64,000 nucleotides of DNA. It comes from Alloprevotella sp. (GTDB lineage: Bacteria > Bacteroidota > Bacteroidia > Bacteroidales > Bacteroidaceae). The stretch spans positions 1 to 64,000 of the forward strand of contig JAFUXE010000006.1 of NCBI GenBank assembly GCA_017477205.1, given 5' to 3'. The translations under genes and the position numbers were made by a program. The notes beneath the pieces were generated by a model, which did no database searches, was not told where the DNA came from, and saw only the letters and a list, made by a program, of their open reading frames with translations. Positions 34,429-38,013 of this stretch are shown one piece after another (positions within the stretch are counted from its first letter, which is position 1; each line of letters opens with the position of its first letter).

Positions 34429-34594
34429 AATTAGATATTGGTAATGCTATGGCAAAGCATGCGAGGGGGCGCAAAAGAGACCCCTGCGAAATGCTCCGCA
34501 GTTTAACGTCCTGCAAATGAAAGCTATTTTTCCTTTACCACAAAACTTTTTCGCCTTTTTTTATTCGATTGCCACCAAAGCATGCGCCAAAAGG

Positions 34595-34626
34595 CTTGCA
34601 ATAGTCCCAAAAGTTTCTTATCTTTG
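34595..34626 (+). promoter_or_regulatory. Promoter of the NfeD-flotillin unit
   Basis: CTTG (34595-34598) and TATCTTTG (34619-34626) are 20 bp apart; the start codon is 33 bp further. Confidence 0.65.
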
Positions 34627-34659
34627 CAGCCTCACATATACCATTCAACTACACAAGCG

Positions 34660-35262
34660 ATGTTTGAATCATTTACAACCTGGTTTTCGGCCCTGGACGG
34701 CATACAGCAGATGTTCTGGGGCTGTGCACTGGTGGCCAGTGCAGTGTTTCTCGTACAGATGGTGCTGACGCTGCTCGGCATGGACGGCCACGACGTGGAC
34801 GTGGACTTCGACGCAGCCGACTTTGGCGACACGGACGGCGACACGATGGACACGGGCGGTGCCGTATCGCTCTTCTCCGTCCGCAGCATGGTCAACTTCT
34901 TCGTGGGCTTCGGATGGGCAGGCGTGAGCTTCCACGACCTGATTGGCAGCCCCGCATTGCTGATTGCGGTCAGCGTACTGGTGGGCGCGCTCTTCGTCTG
35001 GGTTTTCTTCTTCATCAAGAAGCAGACGAAGAAGTTCGAGGCCAACGGTGCCTTCGACATCCGCAACTGCGAGGGGCGCACGGCCAATGTCTATCTGCGC
35101 ATCCCGGAAGGGAAGGCAGGCAAGGGCAAGGTGCAGGTGTCCGTAAACGGCTCCATCCACGAAATAGATGCCCTCACCGACGGCGATGCCATCGCCAGCG
35201 GGCAGAAGGTGCGCATCGTCGAGGTCATCGACGGTGAGACGCTACGGGTTGTTCCCCTTTAA
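34660..35262 (+). CDS. NfeD-like membrane protein
   Basis: The start is set at MFESFTTWFSALDG (34660), downstream of the promoter, giving 200 residues. The N-terminal half has hydrophobic segments (about 20-37, 70-90 and 100-125) split by an Asp-rich loop (HDVDVDFDAADFGDTDGD). The C-terminal half is a soluble beta-rich domain (NCEGRTANVYLRIPEGKAGKG to KVRIVEVIDGETLRVVPL) that fits the NfeD OB fold. NfeD proteins partner with SPFH proteins, and the flotillin gene follows by 39 bp. Confidence 0.8.
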   Translation: MFESFTTWFSALDGIQQMFWGCALVASAVFLVQMVLTLLGMDGHDVDVDFDAADFGDTDGDTMDTGGAVSLFSVRSMVNFFVGFGWAGVSFHDLIGSPALLIAVSVLVGALFVWVFFFIKKQTKKFEANGAFDIRNCEGRTANVYLRIPEGKAGKGKVQVSVNGSIHEIDALTDGDAIASGQKVRIVEVIDGETLRVVPL

Positions 35263-35301
35263 CGCTTAATTATCATTTTTCAATCCTAAATTATCTACGA
35301 T

Positions 35302-36684
35302 ATGCAATCCATGTACATAATCATCGCCTTGGCCATAGTGGTAATTTTCCTCTTCATGGCCATCATCAACCGCTATCGTCGCTGCCCCTCGGACAAGATC
35401 CTCGTCATCTACGGCAGCAAGAGTAACAAATCCAGCGCCCGTTGCATCCACGGTGGTGGTGCCTTCGTATGGCCCATCATCGAGGACTATGCCTACCTGT
35501 CGCTGACCCCCATCTCCATCGATGCCAACCTGACCAATGCGCTCTCGAAGCAGAACATCCGTGTTGACGTGCCCAGCCGCTTCACCGTCGGTATCAGCAC
35601 CGACCCCGAGTCGATGAATGCCGCTGCCGAGCGCCTTCTTGGCCTCACGCCCGGACAGATTCAGGAGCTGGCACGCGACATCCTCTTCGGCCAGCTGCGT
35701 CTCGTCATTGCCACGATGAGCATTGAGGAGCTGAACAACGACCGCGACAAGTTCCTGGAAAGCATCTCCGCCAACGTGGAGGTCGAACTGAAGAAAATCG
35801 GCCTGCGCCTCATCAACGTAAACGTCACCGACATCAAGGACGAGAGCGGATATATCGAGGCCCTCGGACGCGAGGCCGCAGCAAAGGCCATCAACGAGGC
35901 CAAGGTGCGCGTGGCCGAGCAGGACAAGGTCGGTGAAATCGGTAAGGCAGAAGCCGTCCGGGAAACGCGTATCCGTACGGCCGAGGCCAATGCAACGGCT
36001 GTACAGGGTGAGAACGCGGCAAAGGTGGACATTGCCGTCAGCGATGCCGACCGCCGCGAGAAGGAGGCCGAGGCACACCGCAAGGCCACGGCTGCCGAGC
36101 GTGTGCAGGAAGCCCGTGCACAGCAGGAAGCCTATGCCGCAGAGCGCGAGGCGGAAATCGCCCGTGCCGAGCGCGAACAGGCCACGCAGAAGGCCAACGT
36201 CCTCGTGCCGCAGGAAATCGAGAAACAGCGCCTCATCATTGAGGCCGAGGCAGAAGCCGAGCAGAAGCGTGTCAACGCCAAGGGTGAGGCCGACGCCATC
36301 TTCGCCAAGATGGAGGCCGAGGCAAAGGGTCTCTACGAAGTGCTCACGAAGCAGGCCGCAGGTTACGACAAGATGGTACAGGCCGCAGGCGGCGATGCCG
36401 ACAAGGCATACATGCTGCTCCTCCTGGAAAAACTGCCGGAGCTCGTCAAGACGCAGGTGGAGGCCGTCAAGGGCATCAACATCGACCACGTCACCGTCTG
36501 GGACGGCGGCAACAGTGCCGACGGCAAGGGCTCAACGGCCAACTTCGTCAGCGGGCTGATGAAGTCTGTGCCCCCGCTCAACGAACTCTTCGACATGGCC
36601 GGCCTCAGCCTGCCGGAATATCTCGCAAAGAAGAAAGAAGGCGTCAAGCCCGTAGAGACGGCTGATGCAGAGGAAGTCAACTGA
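35302..36684 (+). CDS. Flotillin-family SPFH protein (YqiK-like)
   Basis: This 460-residue protein has an N-terminal membrane segment (4-22), an SPFH/band-7 domain (about 25-190, CPSDKILVIYG ... LARDILFGQLRLVIATMSIEEL), and a long Ala/Glu-rich coiled coil (about 190-350, many EA and AE steps). The C-terminal oligomerisation part contains LLLEKLPELVKTQVEAVKGI. Flotillins scaffold membrane microdomains. The NfeD-like gene upstream is the standard partner. A very strong terminator follows. Confidence 0.9.
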   Translation: MQSMYIIIALAIVVIFLFMAIINRYRRCPSDKILVIYGSKSNKSSARCIHGGGAFVWPIIEDYAYLSLTPISIDANLTNALSKQNIRVDVPSRFTVGISTDPESMNAAAERLLGLTPGQIQELARDILFGQLRLVIATMSIEELNNDRDKFLESISANVEVELKKIGLRLINVNVTDIKDESGYIEALGREAAAKAINEAKVRVAEQDKVGEIGKAEAVRETRIRTAEANATAVQGENAAKVDIAVSDADRREKEAEAHRKATAAERVQEARAQQEAYAAEREAEIARAEREQATQKANVLVPQEIEKQRLIIEAEAEAEQKRVNAKGEADAIFAKMEAEAKGLYEVLTKQAAGYDKMVQAAGGDADKAYMLLLLEKLPELVKTQVEAVKGINIDHVTVWDGGNSADGKGSTANFVSGLMKSVPPLNELFDMAGLSLPEYLAKKKEGVKPVETADAEEVN

Positions 36685-36703
36685 TTTCCTTTATTTAACG
36701 ACG

Positions 36704-36760
36704 AATCGTGGGCATTCTTGCGTCAGTGCAAGAATGCCCACGATTATTATATATTTTTTA
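36704..36760 (+). terminator. Terminator of the flotillin unit
   Basis: A perfect 18-bp stem (36704-36721 with 36728-36745) and 6-nt loop, followed by ATTATATATTTTTTA. Confidence 0.92.
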
Positions 36761-36763
36761 GCG

Positions 36764-36993
36764 GTCACCGGAGGTGACACATCATGCTTAACCCCCGTCG
36801 CGCGAAGCGCGTCGTGGGGGTATCTAAGCACACGACGGGGTCACGTCTCCGTAGGAGTCGCACAAGCAAATATGCGTTTAATCATGCGACTGCTCCGCAG
36901 ACGCCCCGCAGACAGACATCTCCTTCTCCCCACGACGCTCATCGCTTCGCTCCGAGCGACGGGGGTTAAGCATAATGTGTTGCCTACGGCAAC
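36764..36993. mobile_element. 230-bp palindromic element with hairpin ends (MITE- or BIME-like)
   Basis: The two 38-nt ends (36764-36801 and 36956-36993) are inverted copies. Each end has a terminal 15-nt hairpin (GTCACC-GGA-GGTGAC left; GTTGCC-TAC-GGCAAC right), a 5-nt spacer, and an 18-bp perfect inverted repeat (ATGCTTAACCCCCGTCGC). The hairpins differ at two stem positions on each arm and every change is compensated. Inside, a further inverted repeat pairs 36845-36862 with 36885-36902 (15 of 18). There is no coding capacity. No target-site duplication was recognised. Confidence 0.7.
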
Positions 36994-37011
36994 TTTAGCA
37001 GACACGAAGGA

Positions 37012-37083
37012 TTACATACCCGCAAAGATTCGTGAAATTCGTGCCGTTCGTGGTTCAAACAAAGAGTGGAGTCTGTGGTTTAA
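37012..37083 (-). repeat. 75-bp dispersed repeat, copy 1
   Basis: The minus strand matches 41191-41267 on the plus strand over its length; a core of about 38 bp (AACCACGAA, GGCACGAATTTCACGAATC, TTTGCGG) has only two differences. Confidence 0.75.
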
Positions 37084-37086
37084 CAG

Positions 37087-38013
37087 CTATATCCAGGCAC
37101 GCTTGCGGAAAAGCCAGTAGAAGAGGCCCGTGATGGCCAGCGAGCCCACGACGACGACGGGCATGCCCCATGACACACTCTCCATGCCGTTCAGGAGGTT
37201 CATGCCGAAGATGCTGGCGATAAGCGTCGGTACCATGAGGATGAGGCTGATGCTCGTGAGCTGCTTCATGACGCTGGCCATGTTGTTGTTGATGATGCTG
37301 GCGTAGGTCTCCATCGTCGAGTCGAGGATGTTCGCATAGATGTTCGCCGTCTCGCGCGCCTGGTTCATCTCGATGTTCACGTCCTCGATAAGTTCCGCGT
37401 CCAGCTCATCGACGGGAAGCTTGAACTTCAGCTTCGAGAGCAGCGTCTCGTTGCCGCGTATGGACGTCACGAAATACGTCAGGCTGTCCTGCAGGCGCGA
37501 AAGGCCGATAAGGTCCTCGTTGTCGATACTGTGGTCAAGGTTGCGCTTGGACTCCTCGATGAGCACGTTGATCTGTTTCAGGCGCTTCAGGTACCATACG
37601 GCGCTGGAGAGGAAGAGGCGGAACGTAAGGTCCACGCTGTCCGTGAAGCCCAGGGCACGCTTCTGCTGGTAGCTCACGAAGTCTATCATCATGTTCGTCT
37701 CGTAGTTGCAGACCGTGATGCAGACCCCCTTGTTCATGATGATGCCCAGCGGGATGGTGGTATGCGGCGTGCGCGAGCGTACTTCCTTCACGTAGGGGAT
37801 ACGCAGGATGATGAGCGACCAGCCCTCTTCGTATTCGTAGCGGGCACGCTCGTCCTTGTCTCGGATGTCGTCAAGAAAGTAGGTGGGGATTTCGAGCTCG
37901 TTAAAGAGGAATTCCTCGTCCTCTGCGGACGGACAGGTCACCTGCACCCAGCAGTTGGGTTCCCACTTTTCGAGGGTGCGCAGACCATGGTTGATGTTCC
38001 AGAATGTTCTCAT
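37087..38013 (-). CDS. corA: CorA-family magnesium transporter
   Basis: This 308-residue protein has a cytoplasmic alpha/beta N-terminal domain, a long helical stalk and two C-terminal membrane helices. The ion-selectivity motif G270-M-N272 lies in ASIFGMNLLNG at the end of TM1, and TM2 ends in a basic tail (FRKRAW). It imports Mg2+ and related divalent ions as a pentamer. It converges with the flotillin unit. Confidence 0.93.
   Translation of the reverse strand: MRTFWNINHGLRTLEKWEPNCWVQVTCPSAEDEEFLFNELEIPTYFLDDIRDKDERARYEYEEGWSLIILRIPYVKEVRSRTPHTTIPLGIIMNKGVCITVCNYETNMMIDFVSYQQKRALGFTDSVDLTFRLFLSSAVWYLKRLKQINVLIEESKRNLDHSIDNEDLIGLSRLQDSLTYFVTSIRGNETLLSKLKFKLPVDELDAELIEDVNIEMNQARETANIYANILDSTMETYASIINNNMASVMKQLTSISLILMVPTLIASIFGMNLLNGMESVSWGMPVVVVGSLAITGLFYWLFRKRAWI

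Follow-up and report, generated by a model that had tools for sequence, protein, structure and literature searches.

The closest described systems are the REPINs and BIMEs, inverted pairs of short hairpin units that are dispersed in genomes (PMC3116915, PMC6006769, PMC8266576). Related units cluster there at a low-copy Y1 gene, the RAYT (TnpA_REP), and their stems show compensatory changes. The 2018 survey (PMC6006769) calls TnpA_Y1 subclass 1.2 IS200-like and, in its table, gives it a low copy number and a "no" for REPs; it describes proteins of about 150 aa with the motifs Y---Q--HH and DH[IV]H, few copies per genome and an occurrence in Bacteroidetes. Open-licence literature, screened by title and the start of the abstract, yielded no treatment of REPs of subclass 1.2. 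Two further systems have features in common with the locus described here. In PMC3733652 the TIRYT tyrosine transposase genes lie between long, partly self-complementary repeats (TIRtrons) that are also dispersed as pairs or clusters. In PMC1525189, insertion sequences that target REPs place an IS-type end against a REP hairpin.

The element that we analyzed lies in the window, the whole 64-kb stretch of DNA examined. Its likeness to REPIN/BIME pairs in form and in Y1 association is strong. The inverted units make up one long hairpin, units flank a low-copy Y1 gene in the genomes G043 and G339, and copies are dispersed in the relative G043. Unlike the RAYT-type REPs, the units here share a TAACC that lies between hairpins and have no GT[AG]G foot; each has three hairpins, and the candidate partner scores as IS200-type rather than REP-associated. 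Membership in the GTAG-tagged RAYT group thus fails on both tag and protein score. The GTAG/CGTC REP families of PMC3733652, which are single palindromes with a terminal GTAG or CGTC motif, were rejected by reading, as the units here have two extra hairpins and no terminal GTAG or CGTC. The motif given there for the TIRtrons is GGGGWSAS, and their likeness to the present units is by description only.

Anatomy and surroundings of the palindrome

The 230-bp palindrome at 36764-36993 consists of two REP-like units, mutually inverted. As the initial annotation had described, it has a 15-nt hairpin at each end, 5-nt spacers and a perfect 18-bp inverted repeat (36784-36801 / 36956-36973), and the left and right terminal stems differ at two positions per arm with pairing retained in both. 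A repeat search found 42-nt arms with 86% complementarity. Folded as single-stranded DNA, the palindrome reaches -72.5 kcal/mol, where shuffles average -36.77 (z = -9.98) and none of 200 does as well. The internal pairing that had been claimed is present and more ordered than supposed, each half also containing hairpins B and C. Copies compared by eye share a plan of hairpin A, spacer, ATGCTTAACC, hairpin B and hairpin C, the last mostly followed by GCAC. The spacer is mostly ACAYY or GCAYY. Hairpin B has a G+C-rich stem with a variable inner part (CGCGC/GCGCG, CGCAC/GTGCG, CGCAT/ATGCG or CGCTC/GAGCG).

Read on the plus strand, the left unit begins with hairpin A, GTCACC-GGA-GGTGAC (36764-36778), a slot that varies with mostly retained pairing in the 31 rows compared below. 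The spacer ACATC (36779-36783) fills a slot that is ACAYY or GCAYY in most rows, and the linker ATGCTTAACC (36784-36793), which includes TAACC, is also found in relatives. A hairpin B of the short type, CCCC..CGCGC-GAA-GCGCG..GGGG, spans 36792-36819, and hairpin C, GTCTCC-GTA-GGAGTC with one T-T mismatch and followed by GCAC, spans 36845-36859 and is present in G043 copies. The right unit reads on the minus strand. From its outer end it has hairpin A, GTTGCC-GTA-GGCAAC (36979-36993; GTTGCC-TAC-GGCAAC on the forward strand), the spacer ACATT (36974-36978; AATGT forward), the linker ATGCTTAACC (36964-36973), a hairpin B of the long type, CTC..GAG, seen by reading and by the repeat search (36928-36965), and hairpin C, GTCTGC-GGA-GCAGTC, again with one T-T mismatch (36888-36902). 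At their feet the terminal hairpins read TAGCG|GTCACC (left) and TAAA|GTTGCC (right, minus strand), so neither has a GT[AG]G foot; GTAG in the palindrome is confined to hairpin apices. The two types of hairpin B mostly keep to one end each in G043, the long type to the GTCGCC end and the short type to the GTTGCC end (L098/L122 and L090 are exceptions). The window copy has the opposite combination to the G043 majority, as though its interior had been turned around between the ends.

The palindrome sits between two convergent genes, as the initial annotation stated, coding for an SPFH/Band_7 protein (35302-36684, plus strand) and CorA (37087-38013, minus strand). Outside the element, reading and the repeat search give a perfect 18-bp hairpin at 36704-36745 on the plus strand, probably the terminator of the SPFH gene. 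The element had been said to lack coding capacity. This needs amending in that two mechanically predicted ORFs run across it, one of 151 aa (36665-37120) and one of 61 aa (36784-36969), though nothing points to either being a gene. The neighboring repeat that had been reported is also there, a 64-nt sequence at 37002-37065 that is 90.6% identical to 41274-41211 on the opposite strand and has ATTCGTG-like repeats within it. A 15-mer like that of this repeat (at most two mismatches) occurs in three of 80 relatives' loci, with none for the reversed control.

These loci came from a scan with the neighboring CorA in which 80 of 146 were kept, the best being from an uncultured Prevotellaceae genome (92%) and the next from Alloprevotella. 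In 66 of the 80, CorA has a DUF349 homologue on its downstream side; in two the homologue is upstream, and in 12 it was not found. In the window, a 226-aa ORF without a Pfam match and the SPFH gene stand between the DUF349 homologue and CorA (34429-37086). None of the 80 loci yielded either protein at E ≤ 1e-10, so the element is located in a stretch that is absent from these relatives.

Dispersed units and paired changes in hairpin A

Uniqueness to this locus, which the initial annotation had named as grounds for refuting it, does not hold, as copies occur in relatives. The window has no second copy of the palindrome within its 64 kb. By blast the element had no match at E ≤ 1 in the first 80 CorA loci; at E ≤ 10 with two added loci, both of these matched and the remaining matches were 13-mers. 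We also surveyed a genus sample of 58 genomes, in which G003 is Alloprevotella rava; G339 is from outside the sample. Element DNA matches two of the 58, G043 with 33 matches and G004 with two overlapping matches at one place. The linker pattern YAYYATGCTTAACC matches 67 times in G043, 16 times in A. rava and not at all in the other 56. Its reversed control gave no match in either genome and one in each of three others. Across the family, CACCATGCTTAACC was found in seven of 399 genomes, with more than one match only in G043 (34) and A. rava (13); the five genomes with a single match have no convincing hairpin A. Units of the form A-spacer-ATGCTTAACC-B-C are dispersed in relatives. The copy number in G043 is probably underestimated, because nine contigs start within 75 nt of the 17-base core.

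Hairpin A was compared in 31 distinct 32-nt rows from 33 units of the window, G043, G004 and A. rava, collected with regular expressions on the spacer, linker and following bases. The selection excluded ends whose linkers are decayed or unusual, among them L149 1501 (intact stem), L150 1469 (altered) and the left end of L121 (degraded). Paired cells make up 94.1% against 79.9% in shuffles, changes on both sides occur in 29 cells against 10.3, and the covariation score is 0.489 against 0.209; in each case none of 500 shuffles, which leave kinship among the rows in place, was as high, and the best score with the hairpin slid out of register was 0.201. Two of the five measures are ordinary, the number of pairs with both-side changes (4) and the number of further pair types (10), reached in 96 and 48 of the 500 shuffles, respectively. 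Together the rows indicate that hairpin A has mostly been maintained by paired changes. The selection on structure that had been read from the two ends of the window copy is in keeping with this covariation but does not extend to all copies, since uncompensated changes also occur. At 31 G043 places of the window type, the hairpin A stem is intact in 22, has one mismatch in three and is degraded in six. The degraded form, GTTGCC-GTA-GCTGGC, has two Watson-Crick pairs, three G-T pairs and one C-C. The R-end hairpin GTTGCCGTAGCTGGC occurs at six G043 places (L115, L122, L124, L125, L143 and L144) and looks like a chimera of the stem types GTTGCC..GGCAAC and GGCAGC..GCTGGC.

Hairpin units beside Y1 transposase genes

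The element has no tnpA of its own, as the 64-kb window codes for no Y1 homologue (best tblastn E = 0.06). In G043 there is one Y1_Tnp match, to which a protein search adds just a fragment of the same gene's 3' end. This gene (152 aa, L153 1495-1953) has units on both sides with other stems and an identical ATGCTTAACC, and five ATGCTTAACC units lie within about 1.2 kb of it. Its 3' end has been duplicated along with a flanking unit (L153 about 2385-2440; G043 C42:36853-36915). The Y1 gene of G339 is accompanied by six hairpin-AACT-ATGCTTAACC units, divided five to one between its two sides. At 29 other Y1 loci a search for a narrower unit form found no ATGCTTAA unit, three single matches looking like chance.

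The G043 Y1 protein scores 68.1 bits as an IS200/IS605 transposase (cut-off 55) and misses the NCBIfam model for REP-associated tyrosine transposases, with 22.5 bits against a cut-off of 80. It matches transposase chains of known structure, 2xm3 among them (E = 1.7e-10), which we take to be ISDra2. Its YIMKQKEHH agrees with the Y---Q--HH signature of subclass 1.2, and it reads WVRGY where the survey table has WQ (PMC6006769). Y1 matches are present in 28 of the 58 genus genomes, 26 of them above the cut-off. Genomes with both units and Y1 have one to five Y1 matches each and many units. We took 29 of 30 Y1 loci (L155 was omitted) and placed the gene in 25. The Y---Q--HH and HUH motifs are found in 22 of these 25 and in 39 of 40 genes of a second set described below. 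By motif, rather than by the published profiles, these Y1 proteins fit subclass 1.2.

Repeated sequence beside the gene is common in these genomes. At least 20 repeated 12-mer positions occur in the flanks of 17 of 20 Y---Q--HH loci and at 10 of 78 control spots (p = 1.3e-8), two of 22 loci shorter than 3 kb and two of 80 controls shorter than 6 kb having been dropped. In this the loci differ from the entry for subclass 1.2 in the survey table (PMC6006769). Units from one Y1 locus are dispersed, with 47 matches at home (G005), 44 in G006 and none in the other six of eight genomes, in a search that scored part of the candidates. Units from another have 32 matches at home (G013) and none in the other six of seven genomes.

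To follow the shared stretch, we scanned for a hairpin with TAACC 2-15 nt after it. In the first set this was found at nine of 22 Y1 loci and one of 78 controls. Other pentamers gave, in Y1 loci and controls, respectively, four and one (TTAGG), three and six (CCAAT), three and three (CCTTA), two and six (GGATT), and two and one (TACCC). In a tree of the 22 proteins, nine loci labeled TAACC-type by eye before the tree was made form precisely one side of a split with support 97/93. By the scan, the tag is in eight of these nine and one of the other 13. Five Y1 loci outside the TAACC clade (L162, L163, L170, L172 and L173), which form one tree group (86/84), have by eye a different kind of flanking unit, mostly GCCCTGAAAGGGC-like hairpins and AGCCCAGGGC..CCCTGGG-like hairpins.

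A family-wide protein search found Y1 matches in 60 of 399 genomes. The second set comprises 40 loci from 37 genomes, none from the first genus sample, with two loci each from G254, G338 and G355. Here the tag is present at 13 of 17 closer Y1 loci and one of 23 more distant ones (p = 2.4e-6), a p value that is not blind, since the 115-bit line between closer and distant was prompted by earlier scores and applied after the tag counts were known. In a joint tree of 62 rows the tag occurs at 21 of 28 Y1 loci in one clade (99/94) and two of 34 in the other; seven of the 28 in the TAACC clade are without hairpin and TAACC by the scan. In one protein clade, most of the sampled Y1 genes have TAACC-bearing hairpin units around them. 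A. rava, despite its 16 linker matches, matches neither Y1_Tnp nor the Y1 protein of G043, which leaves a real gap in this link; the gene may have been lost, the draft may be incomplete or another enzyme may be used.

IS4-type ends and the origin of the element

Many G043 copies have TATTGSTGTCCGSTAAAAGTTG-like ends outside hairpin A, and such an end (at most two mismatches) is present in 24 of the 58 genomes. Counted within 200 nt outside hairpin A, and only where 100 nt or more of upstream sequence was available, it is near 22 of 30 window-type places in G043, three of 39 of type B (the type at the Y1 gene) and none of 16 in A. rava. A full insertion sequence with these ends (L227 1501-2941) codes for a DDE_Tnp_1 and DUF4372 protein (NF033592, 196.1 bits against a cut-off of 115). 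This IS4-family element has a 9-bp duplication when read by eye; in L250, another full-length candidate, the same kind of reading revealed none. Seven terminal-repeat pairs in G043 enclose a unit, two with a perfect 9-bp duplication, one with 7/9, one with 6/9 and three with at most 2/9. The perfect-duplication pair L088/L115 carries a degraded hairpin A. On two or more occasions, therefore, IS4-type transposition would have moved the G043 composite, and it would not have required both ends to keep hairpin A intact. The composite has its likeness in REP-targeting insertion sequences, except that in PMC1525189 the IS inserts into REPs and here the REP pair is inside the MITE.

At the window copy, no matching terminal inverted repeats were found with up to six mismatches in 22, and no 9-bp target duplication by eye. 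There is a shorter remnant on the right only, at 36994-37008 on the minus strand, where TTTAGCAGACACGAA compares by eye with CTTTTAGCGGACACCAATA in G043 (3/14 mismatches at 36993); this possible decayed terminal repeat is backed by its position and is without significance alone. TTTTAGCGGTCACC at 36756-36769 overlaps the left hairpin and, but for one mismatch, would equal an IS4-type end in inverted sense; when the whole window was shuffled 100 times, 35 of the shuffles had a match with at most two mismatches. The copy in the window has the look of an old relative of the G043 composite, with a possibly decayed IS4-type repeat on its right and none recognized in the proper place on its left.

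The initial annotation had proposed a non-autonomous element moved by a hairpin-recognizing transposase, or a BIME-like pair. The dispersed REPIN/BIME-like pair, its link with Y1 genes and the covariation of hairpin A agree with this, but part of the G043 spread appears to have occurred as IS4-type MITEs and, because of the IS4-type ends at 22 of 30 places and the 9-bp duplications at two of seven pairs, would not have needed such an enzyme. Could the whole be a plain IS4-family MITE, the palindrome being subterminal sequence, a DDE transposase the sole mover and the likeness to Y1 units inherited, functionless baggage? The ends on G043 copies and in 24 genomes, the full insertion sequence with its DDE protein and duplication, the two perfect duplications and the spread of degraded hairpins all speak for it. 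We nevertheless consider it unlikely, since units without such ends are common in A. rava and among type B in G043, the window copy retains no more than a single end, a decayed one, and none properly placed on its left, five of the seven G043 pairs lack a perfect duplication, and hairpin A covaries across genomes.

Two further explanations seem considerably less probable. A transcribed RNA structure, acting as a bidirectional terminator or stabilizing mRNA 3' ends and spreading incidentally, would suit the position between convergent genes, the strong fold and the covarying stems; it is very improbable given that the SPFH gene has its own perfect downstream hairpin and that an RNA role alone leaves the clustering of repeats at Y1 genes unexplained. 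Rfam gave a single tRNA in the window and no gathering-score match at the element, which also counts against it. We give still less credence to an origin by deletion from an autonomous IS200/IS605-type insertion sequence whose transposase gene was lost. Hairpins at both ends, and a related Y1 protein that scores as an IS200 family transposase and resembles 2xm3, would fit such an origin. The ends of IS200/IS605 elements are not known to be inverted repeats, whereas the halves of this element are inverted, and the few Y1 matches per genome stand against many units. A multicopy element of the form unit-Y1-unit was not noticed in the loci fetched, which had no dedicated search for one.

The element is, in our reading, probably an inverted pair of REP-like units whose partner is a Y1 enzyme of the TAACC clade. 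Its action on the units, and the manner of it, we infer from their association. The enzyme of this clade would recognize A, and perhaps C, as single-stranded hairpins, may read the TAACC stretch, and would cut and rejoin nearby, such that units spread in trans while its own gene stays put. In G043 only, the pair lies between IS4-type terminal repeats in many copies, some of which would have been inserted with 9-bp duplications as by a DDE transposase. On a broader proposal we find the case evenly poised: that subclass 1.2 works as a REP-type system in Bacteroidales and acts on multi-hairpin units, each marked by a tag particular to the clade (TAACC in one clade) that sits between two hairpins rather than at the foot of one, and that the window holds two such units in inverted orientation, able also to ride as IS4-type MITE cargo. 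The proposal supplies a specific DNA partner for transposases that had been listed as having no REPs, which makes the substrate testable in vitro, and would add a REP-like class with its shared tag between two hairpins. It also suggests hairpin repeats that appear to have been spread by two unrelated transposition systems.
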